DNA from: a virus
IMG/VR virus record: IMGVR_UViG_3300009788_000215
Coordinates: 1 to 35,177 of that record
Strand: one strand, 5' to 3'
DNA: 35,177 nt
In this document: positions 4,530 through 29,464 of the stretch, piece after piece
Position numbering within the stretch: position 1 is the first letter of the stretch
How the letters are laid out: each line of letters begins with the position of its first letter
The notes under the pieces: generated by a model
What the model saw: only the letters and a program-made list of their open reading frames with translations
What the model was told of the DNA's origin: nothing
Database searches by the model: none
Translations under genes and position numbers: made by a program

Positions 4530-5002
4530 TATTCATCAACTCCAGGGACATCAAAACCGCCACCACCACTGGTATCAACTGATACGTCCGGAGCAGTTAC
4601 TTCTTGGTTCGCGGCTGCGCCTGCGAAGAACGACGACCCTGCATCAGCGATGCTGGCTCGGAACTCCTTCTTGGCCGCCCGGCTCTCTGCGGCTGAGGCT
4701 TGTACTGCAAACTTAGCTTGCAACTCTTGCTCGAACACGCCGAACCTGGCTTGAGTCAGGAGCGATGAGACCTGGCCTTGGAAGGCCGAGGACTCTAAGC
4801 CACCTGCTCGTGCTCCTCTCCCTGCAACCTGTGCAGCTTGAGCGCTACGAAACTGGCGTAAGAACGCCCGTCTCTTCTGTCTGTTTTGAATCCGGCCAAT
4901 TGCTTCTCTGAAGCGTTTCGCTTTCTCACGTGCTAGGCGCGCATCGTTCTTGTGGAAGATGCCAGCAATCTTAAAGGCCGCTGCTGCGATCATGAATCCC
5001 AT
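4529..5002 (-). CDS. gp14-like internal virion protein
   Basis: 157 aa. An N-terminal hydrophobic stretch (residues 1-14) is followed by a basic, Arg/Gln-rich helical region (about 20-60, with the motif RRAFLRQFR). A Gly-rich segment, an Ala-rich helix and an acidic Gly-rich tail (GGGGFDVPG) follow. This layout and the place between the tail tubular genes and the giant virion protein fit the small internal-core or ejection protein (T7 gp14 type) that inserts into the outer membrane during DNA ejection. Start ATG overlaps the preceding stop as TAATG and its own stop overlaps the next ATG. Assignment is by composition and position only. Confidence 0.7.
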   Translation of the reverse strand: MGFMIAAAAFKIAGIFHKNDARLAREKAKRFREAIGRIQNRQKRRAFLRQFRSAQAAQVAGRGARAGGLESSAFQGQVSSLLTQARFGVFEQELQAKFAVQASAAESRAAKKEFRASIADAGSSFFAGAAANQEVTAPDVSVDTSGGGGFDVPGVDE

Positions 5003-16667: not shown

Positions 16668-17111
16668 TTATCGTCTGTCTAGCTTCGGTGCGTACCATCT
16701 TGCGCAGGAGGGGACTTGATTCCTCACCATGTTCTGAGATTTCTCTGCTTGACGCAAGTAGGCGTTCTGCACGCCGTAAGCTTCTACTTCACGCTGGTTG
16801 GCCTTCTCGCAGCCTTCATAACCCTCGTATTCGTAGTCGTTGTTCATGTCCTGAAGCCAGTGTGTGAACTCATGCACTAGGATGGACCTAGCGTACTCGT
16901 CTGTCTTCAGGTCGTATTCTTTTGACAGCCATATCTTGCCGTCGTGGTATACGCCCCGTATGCCGCACCCGTTAGGTGCCATTGGGCATATCATTAGGCT
17001 CAGCTCGGCGGGCGTAGCGAAGGATATCTCTGGATAGCCTCCTGGGTCTTCGTAGCCTGTAAGTAACAGCGTCCATGCCATTAGGACCCGCATCATCTCT
17101 GCCCAGGCCAT
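16668..17111 (-). CDS. HExxH metallopeptidase-like protein, exported or membrane-anchored
   Basis: 147 aa from the ATG at 17111, which overlaps the stop of the lipoprotein gene as TAATG; an upstream extension to 17270 only reads through that gene. The N-terminus (VLMAWTLLLTG, residues 9-19) is a short hydrophobic signal or anchor. The core has ILVHEFTHWLQDM with HEFTH at 80-84, followed by REVEAYG with Glu110, fitting zinc ligands of a gluzincin-type site (two His plus a downstream Glu). Cys residues at 42, 49, 101 and 136 suggest an extracytoplasmic fold. With the lipoprotein it may act at the cell envelope, perhaps in lysis or exit. The substrate is unknown. Confidence 0.7.
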   Translation of the reverse strand: MAWAEMMRVLMAWTLLLTGYEDPGGYPEISFATPAELSLMICPMAPNGCGIRGVYHDGKIWLSKEYDLKTDEYARSILVHEFTHWLQDMNNDYEYEGYEGCEKANQREVEAYGVQNAYLRQAEKSQNMVRNQVPSCARWYAPKLDRR

Positions 17112-17440
17112 TAGTAGAACAGCCTTACGGCATCCTCCCTGGCCAGGCAACCTGAATTGTATCCTACCGTCACCCAGATCTTTTTCTGGGCTGCGCACAG
17201 CTCTTTTCGAGCCTCGATCTGCTGTAGCTGAAAAGCGCGGTCCTCTCTCATGAAGACACGCTTCTTGCACTTGATAATGTCTTTCTCTTCCGCGAAATGC
17301 GCGGGGCAGTCGTCCGCCATCTCTGGCGTGGCGCTACATCCGGTCACACTGAAGAATAGCAGCGCTAGCGCCGCTACAAACAGTAGCTTAAAGGGCCAAC
17401 GGGCCTCCTGAAGCAAGATTGACCAGATCTTATCAAACAT
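17111..17440 (-). CDS. Small Cys-rich lipoprotein, first gene of the leftward operon
   Basis: 109 aa. A membrane segment (about residues 17-31) ends in the lipobox VTGC with Cys35 as the lipidation site. The mature part has four Cys (45, 58, 82, 98), enough for two disulfides. A helical, charged region (about 46-85) precedes the C-terminus. The ATG at 17440 has AGAGGAG upstream. An outer-membrane spanin or other lysis protein is possible from size and lipobox, but no partner inner-membrane spanin is seen. An envelope role together with the metallopeptidase-like neighbour is inference. Confidence 0.72.
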   Translation of the reverse strand: MFDKIWSILLQEARWPFKLLFVAALALLFFSVTGCSATPEMADDCPAHFAEEKDIIKCKKRVFMREDRAFQLQQIEARKELCAAQKKIWVTVGYNSGCLAREDAVRLFY

Positions 17441-17456
17441 GTTCTCCTCTATGGGA

Positions 17457-17476
17457 GCGCCGACGAAGTCGGGCGC
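17457..17476 (-). promoter_or_regulatory. Leader hairpin of the leftward operon
   Basis: The arms GCGCCGAC and GTCGGGCGC pair over 8 bp with one bulged base and a three-base loop (GAA on plus, TTC on minus). It lies just upstream of the ribosome-binding site of the lipoprotein gene, mirroring the hairpin in front of the first rightward gene. Confidence 0.5.
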
Positions 17477-17523
17477 GAACCTAGAGATAGCCCCAAGTGT
17501 ACTGAGACATATCTAGAATAGTA

Positions 17524-17540
17524 ACCATTCTACGAATGGT
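17524..17540. repeat. Inverted repeat at the leftward promoter
   Basis: ACCATTC, TAC, GAATGGT: a perfect 7-bp inverted repeat. It overlaps the proposed minus-strand -10 region and start of transcription, so it could be an operator or a leader hairpin. Confidence 0.5.
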
Positions 17541-17566
17541 AATACTTTCTTTTATGTATTAGACAA
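17539..17566 (-). promoter_or_regulatory. Candidate leftward sigma-70-like promoter
   Basis: On the minus strand TTGTCT (17566-17561), a 16-base spacer, then TATTAC (17544-17539). Each box matches consensus at 4 of 6 positions. It would start a transcript about 90 bases upstream of the lipoprotein gene. The region is AT-rich compared with its surroundings. Prediction by eye only. Confidence 0.35.
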
Positions 17567-17640
17567 TAGTTAGAGGAGAAAGTTCAACATTTCTATGAGA
17601 AATTTAAGACCTCCCTTTCGCCAGAGGCGATGGCTTTCGA

Positions 17641-17658
17641 TCCCCCTCCCTCCCCCTT
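17641..17658. repeat. Homopyrimidine/homopurine tract
   Basis: Eighteen bases of pure C/T on the plus strand (C runs of 5, 3 and 5 separated by single T). The minus strand is therefore G-rich with three G runs, a possible two-tetrad quadruplex or easily melted element in the divergent control region. Confidence 0.6.
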
Positions 17659-17714
17659 ATGTCAAATCGACCAAATGTGGTCATTAAATCCCATATGCAG
17701 CAGAATTATGTCAA
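17657..17714. repeat. Direct repeat pair TTATGTCAA
   Basis: TTATGTCAA occurs at 17657-17665 and 17706-17714, 49 bases apart, in the divergent spacer. A small inverted repeat GACCA/TGGTC (17669-17682) lies between. Possible protein-binding sites. Confidence 0.4.
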
Positions 17715-17723
17715 GTGGCACGG

Positions 17724-17753
17724 ATATTGCAACGCGCAGGCGATAATATTGCA
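17724..17753. repeat. Direct repeat pair ATATTGCA spaced 22 bp
   Basis: ATATTGCA at 17724-17731 and 17746-17753. The 22-base period is about two helical turns, placing both copies on the same face of the DNA just upstream of the proposed rightward promoter. Suggestive of an activator or repressor site. Confidence 0.4.
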
Positions 17754-17761
17754 CACGTTAC

Positions 17762-17790
17762 ACGACAATCAACTAGTTGATTGTTATACA
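17762..17790 (+). promoter_or_regulatory. Candidate rightward early promoter
   Basis: ACGACA (17762-17767), a 17-base spacer, TATACA (17785-17790); 4 of 6 matches in each box. A perfect palindrome fills the spacer. Transcription would start near 17797, giving a leader of about 175 bases with two long hairpins before the first gene. Confidence 0.45.
17765..17784. promoter_or_regulatory. Perfect 20-bp palindrome, probable operator
   Basis: The half-site ACAATCAACT is followed by its exact reverse complement AGTTGATTGT. Such two-fold symmetry is typical of dimeric repressor sites, and its position over the promoter spacer fits direct control of the rightward early genes. The regulator is not identified; the ribbon-helix-helix-like protein at 21255 is one candidate. 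Confidence 0.6.
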
Positions 17791-17816
17791 GTTCGGATAG
17801 TTTCCACTCTGCTCAA

Positions 17817-17858
17817 AATCCACACCATGTCAACCTACGGTTGACTATGGTGTGGATT
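17817..17858 (+). promoter_or_regulatory. Long leader hairpin 1
   Basis: Arms 17817-17835 and 17839-17858 form a 19-bp stem (12 bp plus 7 bp, separated by a single bulged T at 17846) with triloop TAC. It is about 20 bases downstream of the proposed start of transcription. No U tract follows, so it is not a standard terminator. A processing or stability element is a possible role. Confidence 0.75.
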
Positions 17859-17907
17859 CCATATATGCTACGTCATGCGCCCGGTATCTACCACGCGAGG
17901 CAAAAGT

Positions 17908-17956
17908 GGGGCTAGGATTCCCCCCTCTTCACGTAGTGAAGGGGGGAATCCGCCCC
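17908..17956 (+). promoter_or_regulatory. Long leader hairpin 2, immediately before the first ribosome-binding site
   Basis: Three stacked stems: GGGGC/GCCCC (5 bp), GGATTCCCCCC/GGGGGGAATCC (11 bp) and TTCAC/GTGAA (5 bp) with triloop GTA; two 2-base bulges (17913-17914 and 17926-17927). Total 21 bp. It ends four bases before AAGGAG of the first gene and would leave that site just exposed. Candidate RNase III substrate, mRNA 5' stabiliser or protein-binding site. Confidence 0.78.
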
Positions 17957-17971
17957 AACAAGGAGTTCGAA

Positions 17972-18196
17972 ATGTCCATGACCAATTCGCTGCAACAGCT
18001 AGCTTTGCTAGCTGGATACAAACCGGAGCCAGTGCCGAAGGCACTTGACTTCGACGACGGTTACACAGGCTATAGCGATTCGTACAACTACTTCGTAGTT
18101 GACTACGACGACCTGATTGAGTCGCACCATCAAGCTTTGCTTGATGAATACGACATTATCGCCACACTCAGCGAAGCTGAGGCCAACTGGAGCTAA
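17972..18196 (+). CDS. First rightward early protein, unknown function
   Basis: 74 aa from the ATG at 17972, with AAGGAG six bases upstream; a longer frame from 17852 would run through the leader hairpin. The protein is acidic, with Tyr/Asp-rich stretches (SYNYFVVDYDDLIE). I do not recognise it. Its coding sequence contains five perfect stem-loops. First-expressed phage genes commonly act on the host; that role is inference from position. Confidence 0.75.
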   Translation: MSMTNSLQQLALLAGYKPEPVPKALDFDDGYTGYSDSYNYFVVDYDDLIESHHQALLDEYDIIATLSEAEANWS

Positions 18197-18197
18197 C

Positions 18198-18401
18198 GTG
18201 ACAATCACACGACGCTACATAGGCTATGTTGCTGGCCGGTCCATTATCCTACCGGATAATGTAGATCGGCTGGCTTACTGCCAACGATTCAAAGTACCAA
18301 GCGATTGCTTGGTACTTAGGTACTCCGAGCTACAATGTTCTGTGAACATTGAGTTCGCCACTCCCCACAACTTGCCGAAGGCAAGGAAGGACATGAAATG
18401 A
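18198..18401 (+). CDS. Early protein 2, unknown function
   Basis: 67 aa, starting at a GTG (18198) with GGAG seven bases upstream and one base after the previous stop. The frame extends upstream to 18117 but only over the first gene. Basic protein with TRRYIGYVAGRSIILPDNVDR and a Lys/Arg-rich C-terminus (PKARKDMK). No family recognised. It carries four perfect stem-loops, including the longest of the array (11 bp at 18292-18317). Its stop overlaps the next ATG as ATGA. Confidence 0.7.
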   Translation: MTITRRYIGYVAGRSIILPDNVDRLAYCQRFKVPSDCLVLRYSELQCSVNIEFATPHNLPKARKDMK

Positions 18402-18658
18402 CCACACGTAACGTCATGACCGTAGAGCAAGCTCTACGTAGTGCTGCTGCCGAGTTCATGGCAGATCGAGGCCCTCAACTGTTCATCACAGATGAACAGG
18501 TTGAGAGGGAAATGTCCACTAACATGCTCCAGTGTAGTTCCCAATGGGAACGACTGGAGTTCTATGGCCTGCCCCTCATCGAAGATGAGGGATTCTACGA
18601 TGACACTCCAGTTACACTGGAGGTCATTACACTCGATGCTCCGCCTCGCGCACAGTGA
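18398..18658 (+). CDS. Early protein 3, unknown function
   Basis: 86 aa, acidic, beginning in an ATGA overlap with the previous gene. Segments include EQALRSAAAEFM (helical) and LEFYGLPLIEDEGFYDD. No motif recognised. Five strong stem-loops lie in its coding sequence (18421-18626), one of them nested (18527-18559). The stop codon falls in the loop of a GCCTCGC/GCGAGGC hairpin (18643-18674). Confidence 0.75.
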   Translation: MTTRNVMTVEQALRSAAAEFMADRGPQLFITDEQVEREMSTNMLQCSSQWERLEFYGLPLIEDEGFYDDTPVTLEVITLDAPPRAQ

Positions 18659-18681
18659 TTACCGCGTGCGAGGCACCGAGA

Positions 18682-18738
18682 CCCTATCTCTCTCGTCAGG
18701 GGAGGAGTCTTACGACTCCCCTGACAGAGAGAGAAGGG
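18682..18738 (+). other. Long intergenic hairpin with TC/GA-repeat arms
   Basis: The outer part pairs CCCT with AGGG and TCTCTCTC with GAGAGAGA; the next part pairs GTCAGGGG with CCCCTGAC; the apex is AGTC/GACT with loop TTAC. About 24 bp in all, interrupted only by small bulges. It lies between early genes 3 and 4, 40 bases before the next ribosome-binding site. No adjacent U tract, so RNase III-type processing is more likely than termination. Confidence 0.75.
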
Positions 18739-18791
18739 GAGAGTTTTGAAAACCCAACAGACGAGGCCCAAGTGGTCCGAAGGAGTTGAAA

Positions 18792-19142
18792 ATGGGTGAC
18801 AAGAGAACGAGCATGAAGGACGTACTCAACGCAGTTGAGTCGCAGACCCAGAGCATTGATGCTCTGGTCACGGCATTAACCGCCAACGCTATTGCCCCGG
18901 CAGCTATTGCTGCCCCGGTAGTTGATGGTGGCGAAGCGCCGAAGGTCGAGGTAGCCGAAGGCTACATGGCTAAAATGACCGAGAAGGCAGCCAACCACGC
19001 CACTACCAAAGGTAGTGAGGTCGTGCTTTATGCACGAAAGAACCAACGTGGCGAGACCAAGCTGGCCTATGCACTGAGGGATCGCTTCGATTCGCTCAAT
19101 GACAAGGGCTTGATTGGCGCTGTCGGCACATTCCAGCCGTAG
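18792..19142 (+). CDS. Early protein 4, unknown function
   Basis: 116 aa from the ATG at 18792 with AAGGAG six bases upstream; this start region (AAGGAGTTGAAAATG) is almost identical to that of the first early gene (AAGGAGTTCGAAATG). The N-terminal 30 residues are helical, followed by an Ala/Pro-rich linker (AIAPAAIAAPVVDGGEAP, about 31-48) and a basic, globular-looking C-terminal half (VVLYARKNQRGETKLAYALRD, partly cited). No family recognised. It holds seven stem-loops, the last of which includes its stop codon. Confidence 0.75.
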   Translation: MGDKRTSMKDVLNAVESQTQSIDALVTALTANAIAPAAIAAPVVDGGEAPKVEVAEGYMAKMTEKAANHATTKGSEVVLYARKNQRGETKLAYALRDRFDSLNDKGLIGAVGTFQP

Positions 19143-19250
19143 GCTGGAGTGTTCAGGGTAACACAGCATAGCTGTGTTATCTTGAGCATTAAGCGGAGTG
19201 GCACATCACTCAGATAATCTTGCGACGGTATACCACGCTCGATTGTGTTT

Positions 19251-19277
19251 GTTTGTGCCTACTCCCACACTTTTTTT
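19251..19277 (+). terminator. Weak possible terminator after the first early unit
   Basis: A short stem (TGTG/CACA around an 8-base loop) is followed closely by seven T. It lies just before the next promoter, where an end of transcription would make sense, but the stem is short. Confidence 0.25.
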
Positions 19278-19288
19278 GCCCGTTGGAT

Positions 19289-19317
19289 TTGACATAACGT
19301 CACTGTTCTTTGATAGT
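19289..19317 (+). promoter_or_regulatory. Strong sigma-70-like promoter for the second early unit
   Basis: A perfect TTGACA (19289-19294), a 17-base spacer and GATAGT (19312-19317; 4 of 6 matches). Transcription would start near 19324, leaving a leader of about 315 bases before the gene at 19639. Best promoter match seen in the window. Confidence 0.6.
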
Positions 19318-19542
19318 GGCATCTAGTCTCATAGGACTGAACCCATAGGTGAAACACAGGCTCGGTAGTTGACGTCCATGCCCTACCTAAGTAGCCGTGC
19401 TATATGGGGAACGACCGTCGAGTGTAAAGCTGGAGCCACTATTAAAGCATAGAACGTGTGTCTTGAGTGACCAACACCTATGTATTGGACGCTTGCTCTC
19501 ACCAAGTAGCGATGACATTAGAGTCAGAGCTACGCTGTCACT

Positions 19543-19567
19543 GGTAAGGTACTTGAAGTACCTAACC
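19543..19567 (+). repeat. Inverted repeat in the leader before gene 19639
   Basis: GGT-A-AGGTACT, loop TGA, AGTACCT-A-ACC: ten base pairs with one A/A mismatch. It belongs to the same triloop style as the upstream hairpins. Confidence 0.55.
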
Positions 19568-19638
19568 CTGTGGACCAGAGGTTGAGTGTAAAGGCAGGCG
19601 TCCACCTATTCTACCACTGTCCTATTAAGGAGGACACC

Positions 19639-20031
19639 ATGAACCAAGTGAAACTGAGGTATGCAAGGGAACGACTGAGTTCCATCGTTGCACTGAAGTG
19701 TAGTGCAGTACCGGGGTATGACCATGAGGACGAGCTTGAGTGGGACGACGTACTCAAACGTCTGCGTGCTGGCACAGCCACCGTCAACTGGAACACCATT
19801 GGCAAATCGAAGAACCAATGGGGCCACAGACATGGCATTAGCGACAGTATCGAGCATCAGGTTGTCGGCAAAGAGAACGCTGCTATTGAGCGGCGTAACA
19901 AGGCAGCCAATGTCCGTCGTGACAAGGCCCAAGAGAAGATACGTGCAGCGGGTCGCCGGGTAGAGGACGAGCTAGTGTTGGGTGACGAGGCCAAGGCAAT
20001 GGCCCTGCTTGACAAGTTCGCTGCCTCATGA
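19639..20031 (+). CDS. Early helical protein, unknown function
   Basis: 130 aa from the ATG at 19639, preceded by the strong TTAAGGAGG site; the frame extends upstream to 19570 without such a site. Charged and basic; the C-terminal half is a long Lys/Arg/Glu-rich helix (RRNKAANVRRDKAQEKIRAA), possibly a coiled coil or nucleic-acid-binding. The N-terminal half has an acidic patch (YDHEDELEWDDVL). Its stop overlaps the start of the pseudopilin gene (ATGA), so the two are probably translationally coupled. Confidence 0.78.
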   Translation: MNQVKLRYARERLSSIVALKCSAVPGYDHEDELEWDDVLKRLRAGTATVNWNTIGKSKNQWGHRHGISDSIEHQVVGKENAAIERRNKAANVRRDKAQEKIRAAGRRVEDELVLGDEAKAMALLDKFAAS

Positions 20032-20495
20032 GGGGCTTCTCACTTATCGAGCTGTTGATTGCACTAGCTATCGCTAGTATCCTGGCAATGGTCGCTGGCC
20101 CCCTGATATTTGGGGGCATCGACTGTAAGAAGCAGAGGATAGGGTGGATACCTAGTGCCAAGGTAAGTGCTGCTATTGGTGAGGTAGGCTCGGCCTACCT
20201 TGACCTCTTACGTAGGACTGAGTTCATCCAAGGTCCCATTGACATCGGTGAAGTGGACCTCGGCCTTGATTATTGGGGCAACCCTTATCAGTTCCTCGAC
20301 CACTCAACTGTCAATGGCAATGGACCCAAGCGTAAGTACAAGAGCAACGTACCTGTCAACAGCAGGTATGACTTCTATAGCATGGGACCAGACGGTAAGA
20401 CAGCCACACCTATGGTGTCGGAGCCGGGTGGTGATGACATTGTAATAGCTAACGACGGCAGCTACGTAGGTGTAGCCTGCTTCTACGGAGACTGA
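20028..20495 (+). CDS. Type II secretion/type IV pilus-like pseudopilin (GspG-like)
   Basis: 155 aa. The N-terminus MRG|FSLIELLIALAIASILA carries a canonical prepilin site: Gly before the cut, Phe at +1, Glu at +5 (residue 8), then a hydrophobic helix to about residue 24. The C-terminal domain has DYWGNPY (81-87), YDFYSMGPDG (114-123) and GGDDI (134-138), matching the conserved Trp-Gly-x-Pro-Tyr and calcium-site pattern of GspG major pseudopilins. Cys33 and Cys151 may bond. Processing would need the host prepilin peptidase (PilD/GspO type). It could join or poison host pili or secretion pseudopili, for example to block other phages. That function is inference; the family resemblance is strong. 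The gene is in frame, with an ATGA overlap upstream and a TGACATG contact downstream, in a phage operon. Confidence 0.88.
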   Translation: MRGFSLIELLIALAIASILAMVAGPLIFGGIDCKKQRIGWIPSAKVSAAIGEVGSAYLDLLRRTEFIQGPIDIGEVDLGLDYWGNPYQFLDHSTVNGNGPKRKYKSNVPVNSRYDFYSMGPDGKTATPMVSEPGGDDIVIANDGSYVGVACFYGD

Positions 20496-20882: not shown

Positions 20883-21080
20883 ATGGCAAAGACCCGAACG
20901 GTAGTCACGACATTGAAGTGTCGCTTGGATCAAGTGATCACTCAACGTGACACCATAGCACAGGACGGTACAATCACGGAACGTGAGGTCATAATGGAAA
21001 CACCGGACCTTGTATCTATTGACTTTGATATGCTGCGACTAGCAGAAGAGGTGAGGGACGATGTACATAATAAAGAATGA
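20883..21080 (+). CDS. Small early protein, unknown function
   Basis: 65 aa with GGGTAAGG upstream. N-terminal beta-like segment (TRTVVTTLKCRLDQVITQ) and an acidic C-terminus (MLRLAEEVRDDV). No motif recognised. It overlaps the next gene by 20 bases. Confidence 0.65.
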   Translation: MAKTRTVVTTLKCRLDQVITQRDTIAQDGTITEREVIMETPDLVSIDFDMLRLAEEVRDDVHNKE

Positions 21081-21258
21081 CCATCGCAATGCGTTCAAGA
21101 CCTATGATGGGTGGACCACCATCGAAGATGGTGTACTCACTGGGTTGCAGAATGTGATGCGCTTCACTGAACGTGAGGCTACGCTCAACGAGGCCCGGCT
21201 ACCTAGTGGTAGTCGGTTCATTTACTTTCCCCGCCGAAGGTGGAAGGATTTACCATGA
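21061..21258 (+). CDS. Small early protein, unknown function
   Basis: 65 aa. Contains KTYDGWTTIEDG and a basic C-terminus (YFPRRRWKDLP). The CACCATC-GAA-GATGGTG hairpin (7 bp, 21117-21133) lies in its coding sequence. Overlaps its neighbours at both ends. Confidence 0.65.
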   Translation: MYIIKNDHRNAFKTYDGWTTIEDGVLTGLQNVMRFTEREATLNEARLPSGSRFIYFPRRRWKDLP

Positions 21259-21431
21259 CTGATAAGACAGAGACAGAGACCATTGAGATCCACTTGTCTG
21301 AGCATGAGCTATTGACGTATGCCATGCTCGCACATGACGAGGACATTACACTCAATGAATGGTTCGTGCGTGCTATACGAGCACGCCTTGAAGCAGAGGG
21401 TATCACTGATAACACACTCGACACTAGCTGA
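21255..21431 (+). CDS. Ribbon-helix-helix-like small protein
   Basis: 58 aa from the ATG at 21255, with AAGGA upstream; a 5-residue extension to 21240 is less likely. After an acidic, Thr/Glu-rich strand (TETETIEIHLSE) comes DEDITLNEWFVRAIRARLEA, resembling the helix pair of Arc/MetJ or HicB-type DNA-binding proteins (strand, helix, turn with a small residue, helix). A transcription regulator, perhaps of the early promoter palindrome, is a reasonable guess. A 7-bp hairpin (21368-21386) lies within it. Confidence 0.65.
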   Translation: MTDKTETETIEIHLSEHELLTYAMLAHDEDITLNEWFVRAIRARLEAEGITDNTLDTS

Positions 21432-21684
21432 CCTGCGTAGGTTGTACCATCACCTGATACATGGTGGGCGGTGGAACTATAACGTAGATACCGACCGGCT
21501 AGCTCAAGGTATCCGCACTATCGAGGAACTGGACGAGGGTAACTGCCGTCGTCATTGCACTACAAGCAAGACACAGTTCGCACGTGGTGCAGAGTGGGCT
21601 ACTGGATTCCTTCCCGATGGTTGGGAAGAGGCATACACTGAGCTAAAGGGACGAGAGCAATGGAAGACTACGAACGAAAGCTAG
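21388..21684 (+). CDS. Small early protein with uncertain start
   Basis: The frame is open from 21319, but that ATG would overlap the previous gene by over 110 bases and no candidate start has a good ribosome-binding site. A TTG at 21388 (98 aa) or 21442 is possible. The protein-like part runs from LRRLYHHLIHGGRWNYNVDTD to WATGFLPDGWEEAYTEL. No family recognised. Confidence 0.5.
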   Translation: MKQRVSLITHSTLADLRRLYHHLIHGGRWNYNVDTDRLAQGIRTIEELDEGNCRRHCTTSKTQFARGAEWATGFLPDGWEEAYTELKGREQWKTTNES

Positions 21685-23672: not shown

Positions 23673-23896
23673 GTGACGAAGAGGTAGTAACCAAGGACAT
23701 TGGGCTAGCTGATCAGTTGACAATGGATGACTTCATCCGTACACTGGTGGCTCAGATGTTCGAGAACGACAACGACACAGCCGAGCTAGAGGTTGTACTC
23801 AAAGGGTCCGAGGGGCAAGAGCCACCGCGCCTCATGCTTCAGTTGAAGCTGACCTCCATCAACGGACAAGCTACAGAAGGAGAGGACAATGGCTAG
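23669..23896 (+). CDS. Small acidic protein upstream of the AAA+ ATPase
   Basis: 75 aa. Helical N-terminus (DQLTMDDFIRTLVAQMFEND) and a beta-like C-terminal part (RLMLQLKLTSI). Begins in an ATGA overlap and ends within the start of the ATPase gene (8-base overlap), so it is co-translated with it. Function unknown. Confidence 0.65.
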   Translation: MSDEEVVTKDIGLADQLTMDDFIRTLVAQMFENDNDTAELEVVLKGSEGQEPPRLMLQLKLTSINGQATEGEDNG

Positions 23897-24977
23897 TGGC
23901 GGTTCACTAAAGGGTAAGTACGACAGCGATATCATCGCTGCTATTGTCGAGACCAAGCAGCAGGAGGACCTTGCTAATGTCACGGACCCATTCACTGAGA
24001 TCGAAGACTACAAGGTGGACGTACCTGCCGGGTCAGTCCTGTTCAGTAAAGCGTTCTGGAAACCCAAAGAGATACCCGATCTGGCAATCACTATGTTCAA
24101 GCCCGAAGATTGGGACGAGGAAGCACAGTTTCATATACCAGCGGTCGATCCCAACTGGATTTGGAACAAGCAAGTTACGGAAAAGTTTGCTCTCGCTATG
24201 TACTGCGGCGATACCACTCTACTGCACGGATTACAGGGAACCGGTAAGTCGTGCCTTGCCGAACAGTGGTGCGCTAAGTTTAAGATTCCAGCGTGGCGCA
24301 TGTCATGTAACCGAGAGACAAGGGAGGCCCACTTCCTAGGCTCACCATCAGTGGAGTACAATGATGAAGGACAAATGTTCATCAAGCAAGAGCCAACGAT
24401 TCTCACTGATAGCCTCCGGTATGGAGGGATGTTCATTGAGGATGAAGCGTTCAGACACAACGCAGCTCTCGTCCTCCAAGCACTCCGTGAAAAGAATACT
24501 CGCAGCATCCTACTTCCTGATGCACCGGGTCGAACATCTGAGGAGCGTAAGCTCGTTGCACCTGACGGTCGATGGTGGTACACACTCACGGACAACACAT
24601 GTGGATCTGGAGACGAGACAGGTATCTTCGACGCTGAGGTGCAAGATGCCTCCACGCTTGACCGCATCGGCGCATCAATTGAAGTTAAGTACTTGGGCAA
24701 ACCTCAAGAACGTCGCATCCTCAAGAAACATTGCAACCTGAACACACCCATACTTGATGGGATGCTCGACTTCACCAAGCTAGTACGCAAGGCGTTCGAG
24801 CAGCAGAATCTACTGGCTACACTCAGTGTTCGGTCCCTGTTAGCATGGGCCGAGAAGATTGAAATGACAGGTAGCATAGAGACTGGCCTCAAGATGTCAT
24901 GGTACGACAAGCTGTGCAATGACGACAAGGCTACCGTTCGGGATATGTTCCATCAAGTATTCGAGAGGGCCTTATGA
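23889..24977 (+). CDS. MoxR/CobS-like AAA+ ATPase
   Basis: 362 aa. Walker A GLQGTGKS (114-121), Walker B MFIEDE (181-186), a sensor-type TDNTCGSGD (234-242) and ASTLDRI with a likely Arg finger (254-260). The pattern around sensor 1 matches the CobS/MoxR branch of AAA+ proteins, which work with a VWA-domain partner. Exactly such a partner follows, overlapping by four bases. In cobalt chelatase the pair drives metal insertion; in other systems it remodels proteins. Here a remodelling role in the phage cycle is more likely than cofactor synthesis, since no cobalamin genes are near. An 80-residue N-terminal region precedes the ATPase core. Confidence 0.85.
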   Translation: MASGGSLKGKYDSDIIAAIVETKQQEDLANVTDPFTEIEDYKVDVPAGSVLFSKAFWKPKEIPDLAITMFKPEDWDEEAQFHIPAVDPNWIWNKQVTEKFALAMYCGDTTLLHGLQGTGKSCLAEQWCAKFKIPAWRMSCNRETREAHFLGSPSVEYNDEGQMFIKQEPTILTDSLRYGGMFIEDEAFRHNAALVLQALREKNTRSILLPDAPGRTSEERKLVAPDGRWWYTLTDNTCGSGDETGIFDAEVQDASTLDRIGASIEVKYLGKPQERRILKKHCNLNTPILDGMLDFTKLVRKAFEQQNLLATLSVRSLLAWAEKIEMTGSIETGLKMSWYDKLCNDDKATVRDMFHQVFERAL

Positions 24978-26887
24978 AGAAGATCAGCTCAGTACTCGAC
25001 GTCAACAACTTGACCAGCGTACTACAGCGGCGGTGTAACTCAATGGGTATCACCCTTGAGTGGTCACAGACTAAGCACATCGCCATGACTGACGGGCAAC
25101 GCATCATACTGCCCGCCATCCACCAACCAGTAACCCAAGAGGCATTGGATAATTTGTATGGGTATGTGATCCACGAATGTGGACACCACTCTAGGGCCGA
25201 AGCGTTCACCATTCTCAATGCAGCGAAGCCACCGCAGGCACTGTGTGCTATGTACAACATCGTGGAAGACGATGCAATGGAGCGGGACGTAGCTCGAGCC
25301 TATGCTGGTGATGCCAAGGCACTCGGGCAGCACAACGCACGTACCATTAAGAAGATCGGTGAGACATGGAAGGAGACCATTGATACGTGGCCCGACGACA
25401 TAACCGAGCAGGACATGGCACCAGTAGCGGTCACCGCACTGAGCCAGCTCTCTCGTATGTCGTGGGACAGCTACTCCAACGTGAGTCGGCACATCTTCAT
25501 GAACAACCTGCATCCGGTAGCTAAGAAGCTGACCGATGATCTGGTAAGTGAGGGTTGGGTCGACAAGATGGAGCAGGTCGGTGACGAGCATGACACTTGG
25601 GACCTAGCTGTTGACCTAGTGAAGCGGCTGTATCCTGACGCTGACGAGGAGCAGCTTGAAGAGTGTCGCCAAAAGGGACACGACGGCCCCTCTGAAGAGG
25701 GTGAAGGTGAAGAAGGTGAGGGCCAGAAAGGAGAAGGTGATGGTCAAGGTGACGGTGAGGCCCAAGGTAAGGGAGACAACGGTGAAGGCAATGATGGAGA
25801 GGGGACTGGAGAAGGAGATGCTACTGAAGGCGATGGACTCACTGATGGCGAGGGCAAACTTCCCGGTGAGGGTAAGGTTATCCATTGGAAAGAGGCAGTA
25901 AACTCACAACATGACGAGTGGCAGGCCAAAGATTTCAATGCACCTGCCGGTAACATCGGCATTGACTGGACCGACTACAAGACAGGCAAAGTAGCGCTCA
26001 TGCCACAGAAGCTGATCAATGTGGTGGACTGCACCAAGAAAAGCAGCGAGCCAATTGAAGATCACAAGTACTACCGTAGCTGTGGTATACCTGAAGCGTT
26101 CATGCCTGACAATAAGGAGAGCCGAGCCTTTGCCAACCAGATCAGGCGGTATGTGCAAGCCCAAGCTAGGGTGAGGTTCGAGCGAGACAAGTACCACGGT
26201 CGGCTGGACAAGGGCAGCATAGTCAAGCTAGTCCTACCACCCATTGATGGTGGTGAATACAACAAGCGTCTGTTCTATCAGATGCACAAGGCAGAAGCAC
26301 AAGACACGTGCATCATGGTGCTTACGGACTGGTCCGGCTCAATGCAGGGACAAAAGATGGTACATGCAGCAGATGCCAGTGGTCGCTTAGTGCAGGTGTT
26401 CGACCGCATACTGCGGATGCCAGTACAACTGGCCGCCTTCACTAACGGCAGATCCAGGTGCGACATTGGCCTCATCAAGAAGTTCGATGATCGCAGCGTG
26501 TCTCCATTAGACATAGCCAGTGGGTTCTCCAAGTTCTACAAGTACAGCTCAGCTAACAATGACGCTGATGCTGTGATGTGGGCATACAACCAGATAAGGA
26601 ACCGCAAAGAGAACCGCAAGATACTGATGGTACTCAGTGATGGGTGTCCAGCAGGCACATGGATGCGTGGGTGTGGCAGTAGCAACCTGTCCTACGTTAC
26701 CAACCATATCCAGAAGGAAGGCAAGGTAGAACTCTATGGTGTGGGCATATGTTCCGACGCCGTGGAAACCTACTACGAAAACGTACAGGTCTTGGAAGAT
26801 GAGACCCAAATCAACCGAGCACTATTCGAGATCATTAAAGGAGGCGTTAAAAATGCCAGACAACGAAGAGTACAACAAGATCATTGA
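24974..26887 (+). CDS. CobT-like VWA-domain protein with an HExxH motif
   Basis: 637 aa. N-terminal part: VIHECGHH with HECGH (67-71) followed by NIVEDDAMERD (95-105), an arrangement seen in zinc-peptidase-like and CobT-type proteins. Middle: a Gly/Glu/Asp repeat linker of about 65 residues (235-299). C-terminal part: a VWA domain with MIDAS motif TDWSGSM (449-455), NNDADAV (526-532) and LSDG (552-555). The gene overlaps the AAA+ gene as ATGA, and the pair is the typical ATPase plus VWA adaptor module. The metal centre may be catalytic or structural. The substrate is unknown. Confidence 0.85.
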   Translation: MKKISSVLDVNNLTSVLQRRCNSMGITLEWSQTKHIAMTDGQRIILPAIHQPVTQEALDNLYGYVIHECGHHSRAEAFTILNAAKPPQALCAMYNIVEDDAMERDVARAYAGDAKALGQHNARTIKKIGETWKETIDTWPDDITEQDMAPVAVTALSQLSRMSWDSYSNVSRHIFMNNLHPVAKKLTDDLVSEGWVDKMEQVGDEHDTWDLAVDLVKRLYPDADEEQLEECRQKGHDGPSEEGEGEEGEGQKGEGDGQGDGEAQGKGDNGEGNDGEGTGEGDATEGDGLTDGEGKLPGEGKVIHWKEAVNSQHDEWQAKDFNAPAGNIGIDWTDYKTGKVALMPQKLINVVDCTKKSSEPIEDHKYYRSCGIPEAFMPDNKESRAFANQIRRYVQAQARVRFERDKYHGRLDKGSIVKLVLPPIDGGEYNKRLFYQMHKAEAQDTCIMVLTDWSGSMQGQKMVHAADASGRLVQVFDRILRMPVQLAAFTNGRSRCDIGLIKKFDDRSVSPLDIASGFSKFYKYSSANNDADAVMWAYNQIRNRKENRKILMVLSDGCPAGTWMRGCGSSNLSYVTNHIQKEGKVELYGVGICSDAVETYYENVQVLEDETQINRALFEIIKGGVKNARQRRVQQDH

Positions 26888-27302: not shown

Positions 27303-28216
27303 TGATTGACCTGACTGACTGGACAAAACATATACGCGACCTCGACAGAGGTGAGTCCATTCGAGTCAACCATCATGACTGTCCAGCGGGTCAAGATACC
27401 CGACGACGATTGTATCTGACCAAGCCCGCTGGCTCTCCGGATGTAGTGCTAGGCTATTGCCACAACTGCCAAGACAAGGGTGTACTGAGCATCAAGACAG
27501 GCTCGGGTAACTACCGACAGTTCGATGCTCCTCCCGACAGTGTGGACCTGCTCCCTAATAACGGGGAATTTTCTGCGCCAAAAAATTTGGTGACTGACAC
27601 AACAGAGTGGCCTACTGAAGCAATAGCGTGGCGTATCCGAGCCAACCTAGACTCGGACGTATGTGAGGGCCTCGGCATAGCTTACGATCCATCAACGCAC
27701 CGAGTGTACCTGCCTATGTTCGACACCATGTACTATGCTGATCAGCACCACATGCAAAGCTTAGAGGGCTATCAATTGAGACGATTAACAGACCGGGGAC
27801 CGAAGTATCTAACCGCAGTAAAGGATTCTGACCGACAACCAAGTACGTTATTGCTCCCCGACCATGATGCTACGGCCCACAAGAGACAAGTGAAGATGGG
27901 TGTGCTAGTGGAGGACCTGATCAGTGGTGCAGCGGTAGCTAATGCGTGCCGCAACACACCATGTAAGGTCGAGGTCATTGTCAACTACGGAACAAAGGTG
28001 ACACCCGAGGTACTGGCCCGGTGTACTGAGTACGACAAGGGGCTAGTGTGGTTGGACAACGATAGTGAGCATGTGTGTGACCAGTCACACAAGATAGCGA
28101 GAGTATGGCGCATGATCAGCGGCTCATACGTAGCTGTCGAACCACAGGCCAAGGACCCCAAGAATTTATCGGACCTAGAAATCTACGACATCATTAACGA
28201 GCACGCCAATGGATAA
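27302..28216 (+). CDS. TOPRIM DNA primase with zinc-binding N-terminus
   Basis: 304 aa. Zinc-binding region with HHDC (24-27) and YCHNC (52-56), as in DnaG/T7 gp4-type primases. Next GYQLRRL and GPKYLT (156-171), then the TOPRIM motifs VLVEDLISG (Glu204) and VWLDND (249-254). It would make RNA primers for lagging-strand synthesis. Unlike T7 gp4 the helicase is a separate gene, which follows with an 8-base overlap. The ATG overlaps the previous stop as TAATG. Confidence 0.88.
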   Translation: MIDLTDWTKHIRDLDRGESIRVNHHDCPAGQDTRRRLYLTKPAGSPDVVLGYCHNCQDKGVLSIKTGSGNYRQFDAPPDSVDLLPNNGEFSAPKNLVTDTTEWPTEAIAWRIRANLDSDVCEGLGIAYDPSTHRVYLPMFDTMYYADQHHMQSLEGYQLRRLTDRGPKYLTAVKDSDRQPSTLLLPDHDATAHKRQVKMGVLVEDLISGAAVANACRNTPCKVEVIVNYGTKVTPEVLARCTEYDKGLVWLDNDSEHVCDQSHKIARVWRMISGSYVAVEPQAKDPKNLSDLEIYDIINEHANG

Positions 28217-28766
28217 TATTGACCTTGATATCCTCAAGTTCATGAGCGAACGAGAGAACTATGACACACACAAGAGTACGATCACGAAGAACCTATGCAC
28301 TAAGGAATCGTGGCGTCTAGTCGAGGACTTCGGCAAATACTTTGACGAGTTCCCCAACGTAACCGAGATAGATAAAGACTTCAACCTATGGTTCCGGGTC
28401 ACTGGACACCCCGGTTGGAAGGCAGAGGAACATGAACTCTACAGTAAGATTATCAGTAACGTGCAAGAGAGTAAAGCCCCTGTACGGGACGTATTCCTTG
28501 CCCAGTTGGAGCGTACTAGACAAACTGAAATCATCGCATCCCTTTATGAAAACTACGTAACGGGGGTATCACTCTTGATGAGTTCCACACAGATGTGGCG
28601 GGACTCCCTAAAACCGGGGGAGCTACTGTTCGGGAACAGACTGTGCAATCTTTCACTCTCGGAGCTATCTCTGCGGATCGTAGATCGAACGCCGGATACT
28701 ACTGGCGACTCGAAGACCTCAATAAGAGCATCGGTCCAATTAGAAAGGGAGACTTCATTGTCGTAG
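28209..28766 (+). CDS. Replicative helicase, N-terminal fragment (frame broken)
   Basis: 185 aa as read. The first 117 residues look like the N-terminal helical domain of a DnaB-type helicase and run naturally to YENYVTG. After the G5 run at 28562-28566 this frame turns into Ser/Thr/Arg-rich sequence that overlaps the start of the ATPase domain in the other frame and is probably not genuine. Moving one base back at the G run continues as GITLDEFHTDVAGLPKTGGA and joins the ATPase domain, giving a normal helicase of about 418 aa. Confidence 0.75.
   Translation: MDNIDLDILKFMSERENYDTHKSTITKNLCTKESWRLVEDFGKYFDEFPNVTEIDKDFNLWFRVTGHPGWKAEEHELYSKIISNVQESKAPVRDVFLAQLERTRQTEIIASLYENYVTGVSLLMSSTQMWRDSLKPGELLFGNRLCNLSLSELSLRIVDRTPDTTGDSKTSIRASVQLERETSLS
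28560..28568 (+). other. Frame-change point in the helicase gene (G5 run)
   Basis: Zero-frame codons are ACG GGG GTA. Re-reading one G gives ACG GGG GGT ATC and restores a full helicase. Either a one-base sequence or assembly error in the homopolymer, a real mutation, or a programmed -1 frameshift. The P-site tRNA could re-pair fully on GGG, the A-site tRNA could not, so it is not a classical slippery heptamer. Confidence 0.7.
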
Positions 28767-29464
28767 GCAAGCGGCCAGAAGTTGGAGGGACATCGTTCCT
28801 AGTCAGTGAGCTAGCACACATGCTAGAGCAGGGCAAGGGGAACGTGGTACTGTTCAACAATGAGGAAGCACCGGACAAGGTATTCACTCGCATGGTATCA
28901 ACGGCCCTCGATGTAGACCACCGCACTATGATGCAAGCTGACAAGCTGTATCAACAGAGGTACGAGGCGTGGCTTGATGGCCGAACGTGGGATCTGGTAC
29001 ATGATACCAGCATGACCACCGGCAGCATCCATGCCCAACTAAAGGAGAAGGAGTATGGTCTCATTGGCATTAACGTCCTGCTTAAAGTCGGCGGAACGTC
29101 AGCGAAGGAGGATCATGATAAGTTCCAGGCACTCGGAGAGGAATTCCGTAGAATTAGCCAAGAGTACGGACCGGTCATTGCCATTGTACAAGCTGATCCT
29201 TCTGCTGAGGGTCAGCGTTTCATCCCACAGGATAGGATCTATAAATCTAAGACTGCATTGCAAGGCGAGGCCGACGCACTCGTCATGATAGGTAAGGACC
29301 ACGACCTACCCGACACCAGTCGGTTCATTAACGTGGCGAAGAACAAGATACCCCCGGCTCCATGTACTGACATCAGTGTCAAGCACATCAAGTCGGAGGT
29401 CGAGTTCGACATGGGGACAGGGCGGTACACATCGCTGAACTACAAGGGGAACAGTCGTGATTGA
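28595..29464 (+). CDS. Replicative helicase, C-terminal ATPase domain (DnaB/RecA-like)
   Basis: 289 aa if a GTG at 28595 is used, but no ribosome-binding site precedes it and the frame is open only from 28550. Walker A-like GKRPEVGGTSF (54-64, GGTS in place of the usual GKTS), FNNEEA (about 87-92) as in DnaB H1a, and VIAIVQAD (H3-type) near 192-199. It fits a hexameric replicative helicase. Loss of the Walker A Lys, seen as Gly in GGTS, is known in a subgroup of phage DnaB-like helicases that take the Lys from elsewhere in the loop; here a Lys is present at the start of the loop. Overlaps the polymerase gene by 8 bases. Confidence 0.82.
   Translation: MAGLPKTGGATVREQTVQSFTLGAISADRRSNAGYYWRLEDLNKSIGPIRKGDFIVVGKRPEVGGTSFLVSELAHMLEQGKGNVVLFNNEEAPDKVFTRMVSTALDVDHRTMMQADKLYQQRYEAWLDGRTWDLVHDTSMTTGSIHAQLKEKEYGLIGINVLLKVGGTSAKEDHDKFQALGEEFRRISQEYGPVIAIVQADPSAEGQRFIPQDRIYKSKTALQGEADALVMIGKDHDLPDTSRFINVAKNKIPPAPCTDISVKHIKSEVEFDMGTGRYTSLNYKGNSRD

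Follow-up and report, generated by a model that had tools for sequence, protein, structure and literature searches.

A dense array of small hairpins through the leader and first early genes of one phage clade

The locus and its hairpins

The window, by which we mean the whole stretch of DNA analysed, is a virus record of 35,177 bases in which late genes run leftwards up to position 17440 and early genes rightwards from position 17972. From within the non-coding leader that separates these blocks to just past the fourth early gene, a span from about 17524 to about 19180, the sequence is densely set with short perfect stem-loops, referred to below as the array (Table 1). None of the four array genes matches a Pfam family, and the window has no Rfam match at the gathering threshold. 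Gene 4 is also without a match in INPHARED or in a pattern-limited scan of genome contigs, and its predicted structure, of middling quality (pLDDT 69), has no convincing counterpart among known folds (none at E <= 0.001). A protein that binds the hairpins was not found. The long nested hairpin between genes 3 and 4 looks like part of a structured RNA or a protein-binding element, and its loop recurs on differently sequenced stems in two related contigs, once in G003 (16354) and twice in G009 (11028 and 11761). In G009, a hairpin resembling an intrinsic terminator, with a T run, directly follows gene 4, so that the array may be coextensive with the first transcription unit.

Table 1. Features of the hairpin array, in window positions (stems written arm-loop-arm)
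Feature	Positions	Strand	Remarks
Hairpin array	17524..19188		Perfect stems of 6-11 bp, mostly three-base loops
Non-coding leader	17441..17971		Between divergent late and early genes; hairpins at 17524, 17589, 17765, 17829 and 17927
Array gene 1	17972..18196	+	74 aa; ATG start chosen by the authors; no Pfam match
Array gene 2	18198..18401	+	67 aa; GTG start chosen by the authors; no Pfam match
Longest perfect stem of the interval 17996-19185	18292..18317		11 bp, loop GATT
Array gene 3	18398..18658	+	86 aa; the G003 ortholog keeps hairpins by conservation, paired change or shift
Hairpin CCCTCATC-GAA-GATGAGGG	18573..18591		G003 has an overlapping GTCTACC-TTT-GGTAGAC in the same gene instead
Hairpin CTCCAGT-TAC-ACTGGAG	18606..18622		G003: CCCCAGT-TTC-ACTGGGG, both arms changed
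Long nested hairpin, loop GAGTCTTACGA	18682..18739	+	Between genes 3 and 4
Array gene 4	18792..19142	+	116 aa; ATG start chosen by the authors; near the array end in all eight array phages
Hairpin CACTACC-AAA-GGTAGTG	19001..19017		G003: CACTTCC-AAA-GGAAGTG, both arms changed
Array-closing hairpins at 19132 and 19159	19132..19179		Across and after the gene 4 stop codon

The first-pass annotation of this DNA had reported 22 perfect stem-loops at 17996-19185. The array is real, and when hairpins are defined by a stem of at least 6 bp and a loop of 3-5 bases, the count in this interval becomes 24, with stems of 6-11 bp. The true start lies earlier than had been stated, in the non-coding DNA at about 17524, and the end at about 19180. 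GAA is indeed the commonest loop in the interval, with five instances (at 18031, 18167, 18371, 18573 and 18951), and hairpins are, as had been stated, far fewer elsewhere: the whole window holds 78 stem-loops by the same definition, and three-base-loop hairpins number 20 in 17500-19200 against 21 in all the rest (0.63 per kb).

Both chance and codon bias are rejected as explanations. Dinucleotide shuffles of 17996-19185 (300 in number) gave 0.78 stem-loops on average and 3 at the most against the 24 observed, and codon-preserving shuffles, by which the annotation had held that its claim could fail, did not reproduce the hairpins either: the four genes of the window carry 14 with three-base loops, whereas 100 shuffles averaged 1.07 and in no case gave more than 3. 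Folded as single-stranded DNA, 17996-18695 reaches z = -10.7 (20 shuffles), and a control stretch outside the array, 20900-21599, also folds better than its shuffles on the coding strand, but to a lesser degree (z = -4.4, 20 shuffles). An assembly artefact is likewise rejected. The contigs L006 and L007, which bear other IMG/VR sample numbers, are 100% identical to the window over 17001-20200, and this agreement of three contigs rules out a single-contig assembly error; a second pair of array contigs, from two samples, is 99.6% identical.

Array phages and the turnover of their hairpins

The distribution of the array was followed through 92 sequences, made up of 80 loci from a terminase search, nine annotated phage genomes, 12 kb of N4, the window and contig L129. 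Eleven of these sequences contain 15-26 three-base-loop hairpins within some 1.2 kb, while the other 81, many of them short contigs that may not reach the array site, contain at most 7, and none lies between. The eleven sequences represent eight distinct phages, for the window, L006 and L007 belong to a single phage and L026 is 99.6% identical to L129. One array each is present on the long contigs G001, G005, G006 and G008; the nine annotated genomes (at most 5 hairpins per 1.2 kb) clearly lack an array, and so do three further long contigs, G022, G024 and G029 (no more than 3). A short, weak array is seen in G011 (locus L034), and L021 ends inside an apparent array. G010 (locus L050) was considered and rejected, its count being produced by AT-rich repeats and a repeated GTTCTAA palindrome. 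In the array-less early region of this contig, GTTCTAA-N4-TTAGAAC is repeated at full-contig positions 24826, 25262 and 25943 and resembles a repressor operator. For the arrays proper, a repeat family or repressor operators were rejected, as the stem sequences differ and the flanks are without a strong motif: the bases beside the hairpins show no strong sequence preference across the eight phages. Nor was a promoter motif common to the leaders found, with no 9-mer present in five of the eight.

The array is a property of one phage clade. A profile search with gene 4 matched ten viral loci, all of them array phages, and of 19 further contigs, L129 alone, again an array phage, has the gene; seven of the 18 that gave no match exceed 43 kb, and several of the rest are too short for a verdict. 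The array genes are partly different among the eight distinct phages. The terminase of the window is 54-56% identical to those of roseophage SIO1, the Lentibacter phages ICBM1-3 and the Celeribacter phage P12053L, and the divergent gene blocks of the window phage are similar to theirs; on such resemblances the array phages appear to be an uncultured clade related to the Zobellviridae. In the cultured relative ICBM2, the terminal repeats lie at the divergent late/early junction that corresponds to the window's leader, and by this synteny the array is probably located at the physical end of a linear genome.

Counts for the eight phages, which exclude G010 and G011 and in which hairpins from different phages are pooled as if independent, show how the hairpins are accommodated in coding DNA. 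Each phage has 23-47 hairpins (three- and four-base loops counted), at a mean centre-to-centre spacing of 63 nt and a median of 49 nt. With the gene sets and starts of our own choice, 123 hairpins lie in genes against 9.2 on average after synonymous-codon exchange that leaves the proteins unchanged, and none of 100 codon shuffles reaches the observed count in any of the eight. With respect to codon phase, 73 loops are in phase 0, 37 in phase 2 and 15 in phase 1, although two three-base-loop hairpins of the window's gene 2 carry the wrong phase in this table, the gene having been taken out of frame. The rarest phase, phase 1, is by our reasoning the one that allows a wobble base in no more than one of every three pairs, which suggests that the hairpins are fitted around the proteins. 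Hairpins are somewhat denser inside genes (125 in 8,559 coding bases) than outside the gene calls (74 in 7,277); hairpin cover is higher in coding than in within-operon intergenic DNA in seven of the eight phages, and in the leader it equals or exceeds coding cover in three. Around 30 start codons, again as chosen by us, cover drops to 0.08-0.10 at -10 to +9, compared with 0.27 overall.

The annotation had also pointed to relatives as a check, and hairpins are in fact kept in orthologs, some of them through changes in both arms. In the window and G003, whose gene 4 proteins are 82% identical, the orthologs of genes 3 and 4 together carry 10 hairpins and 9 hairpins, respectively; simulated neutral change at the observed rates leaves means of only 2.0 and 1.2 in the two directions, and none of 500 simulations reaches the observed number in either. 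In our reading, three of the window's ten retain the same stem core in G003, two differ in both arms, four have given way to another hairpin that overlaps or lies within about 20 bases, and one is now a stem with an eight-base loop. In more distant gene 4 orthologs (a comparison in which the G003 row is out of frame), the hairpins are mostly at other places and of other sequences. Number is thus held while stems and positions change, and what is conserved is the presence of hairpins, not particular hairpins. The two 99.6% identical contigs, which have few differences, show no marked difference in any stem inside the array, and one difference breaks a five-base-loop stem just after it. Evolution is no slower at the stem sites of genes 3 and 4 than elsewhere in them, the fraction that differs being 0.21 against 0.19 over all sites (p 0.49) and 0.37 against 0.28 over third positions (p 0.33), and the upkeep of the stems could therefore be mutational.

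Hairpin anatomy, upkeep and possible work

Loop size, stem length and mismatches were counted in a pool of ten contigs that includes G010 and the weak array of G011. Among perfect stems of at least 6 bp in this pool, 180 have three-base, 34 four-base and 19 five-base loops, and the excess over stem lengths (loops of 3-4 bases) peaks at 6-8 bp with little at 4-5. In the eight phages, the loop is closed by a C-G pair in 159 of 192 array hairpins, compared with 76 of 174 outside. The loops TTT, TCT, GAA, AAA, TTC, TAC, GTA, ATA and GGA are enriched 2.8- to 14-fold and the remaining loops, with few counts, at most 2.3-fold; in the enriched loops, bases one and three are T-T/A-A or G-A/T-C, pairings that form compact loop closures in DNA. 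Of 159 C-closed loops, 71 (0.45) are GNA on one strand or the other, a share that is 0.11 in background CNNNG, and GNA shows no strand bias beyond background (p 0.34). A bias to one strand is present for TCT over AGA (p 1.3e-5), TTT over AAA (p 0.006) and ATA over TAT (p 0.008). Shorter stems are richer in GC: without the closing pair, inner GC is 0.56, 0.53 and 0.42 at 6, 7 and 8 bp (rho -0.23, p 0.001, for the inner five pairs), whereas outside the arrays it is 0.52, 0.51 and 0.49, with little trend and only five stems of 8 bp. The trend does not run steadily through all lengths, for in the arrays the inner pairs of stems from 10 bp upwards are GC-rich again (0.53), yet the richness of short stems reads as if stability had been selected.

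The annotation had listed several RNA roles, among them mRNA protection, RNase III processing, translation pacing and the binding of an RNA-binding protein. An mRNA-level function, in which hairpins of the first transcript protect it, limit the access of Rho or RNase, pace ribosomes or bind a protein, agrees with the coverage of the leader and first early genes, the terminator-like hairpin of G009, the thinning of hairpins at start codons and the coding-strand bias of some loops. It is nevertheless quite improbable, given how the stems treat G-U pairs. In the ten-contig pool, perfect 6-bp stems with three-base loops number 211 against 12.2 expected from the rest of the contigs, while those with any one internal mismatch number only 94 against 66.5: G-U 13 (11.8 expected), A-C 23 (11.8) and other 58 (42.9). 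At 7 bp the corresponding counts are G-U 3 (5.1), A-C 10 (4.1) and other 29 (16.7), so that in neither length is G-U tolerated above A-C on the transcribed strand. At 8 bp all kinds are raised (G-U 11 against 1.8, A-C 9 against 2.1, other 26 against 6.6), a rise which chance extension of perfect 6-bp cores would give. Internal G-U occurs in 27 of 196 hairpins on the + (coding) strand, with 32 mirror cases on the other, compared with 63-71% of random hairpins selected for RNA stability. Nor does RNA folding energy differ consistently between the strands, the mean difference over the eight arrays being -0.03 kcal/mol per 100 nt. The coding strand folds better in five arrays (in two of them by <0.2) and the complement in three, within a range of +1.80 to -2.88; away from the arrays, seven of the eight phages show a slight advantage of the coding strand. 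Against an RNA role stand also the loops, which are of three and not four bases, and the extent of the array, which ends within about 55 bases of the gene 4 stop in four phages but runs 180-620 bases further in the other four. With internal G-U at background and the strands alike in RNA folding, the constraint seems to act on the DNA rather than the mRNA; mRNA structure as the main explanation was put aside on these tests, and of the roles listed by the annotation, only structure in single-stranded DNA is left standing.

Whether selection acts on this structure, as the annotation had proposed, is answered in part: the codon shuffles, the relatives and the trade-off between stem length and GC speak for it, and its main rival, a mutational reading, accommodates the same hairpins without it. 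According to that reading, they would be footprints of polymerase template switching (quasi-palindrome conversion) focused on the early region, and a function would not be needed. Stems that are mostly perfect or absent fit such an origin, as the 6-bp counts above illustrate, and the same logic has been applied to the coding palindromes of Nematomorpha (PMC6649704). Template switching is able to generate perfect stems and to keep them so, and some DNA-stable loops are over-represented among instantaneous paired changes (PMC8794818); in yeast, quasi-palindrome mutations appeared only when transcription was high (PMC3820800). The unslowed stems of genes 3 and 4 point the same way, as does the A-T to T-A change in both arms at 19001, which would need a mismatched intermediate if stepwise. 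Decaying copy lengths, however, should by our reasoning give an excess at 4-5 bp and not the observed peak at 6-8, and the length/GC trade-off together with C-G closure suggests a stability threshold. Three-base loops, dominant in the arrays, are depleted among instantaneous paired changes, at 3.5% versus 6.1% in the same source (PMC8794818); hairpins are somewhat denser in genes, though the coding cost should thin them there; and mutational upkeep leaves open why one region of one clade is affected. On balance we favour selection over mutation, to which we accord a minority chance, and selection at the DNA level as such is about an even call. If it is true, then coding DNA can carry a second, sequence-independent structural code whose elements recur every 50 bases, and the phage must have some process that deals with this stretch as a folded single strand; if template switching is true, the arrays are a strong natural case of localised hairpin-making mutation, the mechanism of which would become directly testable.

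We found no known system that matches the array. Among the papers listed in searches of the open-licence PMC literature, judged mostly by title and the start of the abstract, none dealt with a phage array of this kind. The same scan applied to phage N4 finds AAGAAGC-TCC at 557 and AAGCTGC-TCC at 4546, both C-G closed as in the arrays, which we take to be N4 early promoters; in the first 12 kb of N4, three-base-loop hairpins number 10 and are scattered, not gathered in an array. The promoters of N4 share with the array hairpins the short stem and three-base loop and a place near the early genes, and their 7-bp stems are extruded with the help of gyrase (PMC4496689). That the arrays are N4-like hairpins, extruded by supercoiling to serve an RNA polymerase or another structure-recognising enzyme, is very unlikely all the same. 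N4 possesses a virion RNA polymerase, and its early promoters, three in all, have conserved bases (PMC4496689), whereas the phage arrays consist of 23-47 sequence-variable hairpins, many inside genes, with no strong sequence preference beside them. No N4-type virion polymerase was recognised among the virion proteins tested: the large late proteins of G001 gave no polymerase match in Pfam or PHROGs, and polymerase motif patterns are absent from the largest late open reading frame of four phages.

Other likenesses are equally partial. The mitochondrial coding palindromes of Nematomorpha are also perfect inverted repeats in protein genes, gained and lost between species, unequal in their phases relative to the code and without an excess of imperfect repeats, but they are long (up to 284 bp) and scattered over the mitochondrial genes (PMC6649704), while the phage hairpins have stems of 6-11 bp and mostly three-base loops and are packed at one per 50 bases into one region only. 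Quasi-palindrome template switching makes or restores perfect stems and produces multi-base paired changes, as seen here, and is described in the sources cited as mutation events or RNA-gene upkeep, not as a dense array in one region (PMC8794818, PMC3820800). Streptomyces telomeres have packed hairpins with three-base loops near the end of a linear replicon, paired changes between relatives, and loops of sheared G-A closure that resist single-strand nucleases (PMC7205883, PMC4513846). Their terminal sequence of about 160-300 nt contains only a few palindromes and is bound by Tap, with a terminal protein providing the priming (PMC7205883, PMC4513846); the phage array extends over about 1.7 kb, is largely coding, and no such proteins were recognised among its genes.

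As the similar known DNA acts at single-stranded replicon ends (Streptomyces) or is extruded by supercoiling (N4), we propose a structural role of the DNA at the entering or replicating end, in which protection would be the likeliest task. The array would be a set of selected small hairpins, stable as DNA, running through the leader and first early genes, with perfect Watson-Crick stems of mostly 6-8 bp and a mostly three-base, C-G-closed loop about once per 50 bases. These hairpins would act when the stretch beside the presumed genome end is single-stranded or strongly underwound; the strand would then fold up as successive compact loops, withstanding single-strand nucleases and restricting how far SSB or RecA can coat it, a role resembling that of the Streptomyces telomeric palindromes at their ends. 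Alternatively, the hairpins might work as landing sites for a phage protein. It is offered tentatively, and with the chances against it, that the first genes double as a folded single-stranded or cruciform element, coding for protein while forming a 'telomere-like' row of mini-hairpins that would shield or mark the entering genome end; the specific role in end protection is somewhat less likely again.

Other features of the window

Directly after the array, some 440 non-coding bases (19200-19640) contain a match to TTGACA-17-GATAGT (10 of 12 positions) and are perhaps the next promoter region. An early open reading frame at 20028-20495 starts, as read from its translation, with MRGFSLIELLIALAIASILAM and resembles a prepilin-type N terminus. 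At 28209-29464, the window has two frames where G001, a contig of the same phage, has a 418-aa gene for a DnaB-like helicase (matched by position), pointing to a frameshift or a sequencing error in the split gene. Adjoining genes at 23889-26887 match PHROGs for porphyrin biosynthesis and for the cobaltochelatase CobT, and the oyster-derived phage PQ867845 has genes annotated as CobS and CobT.
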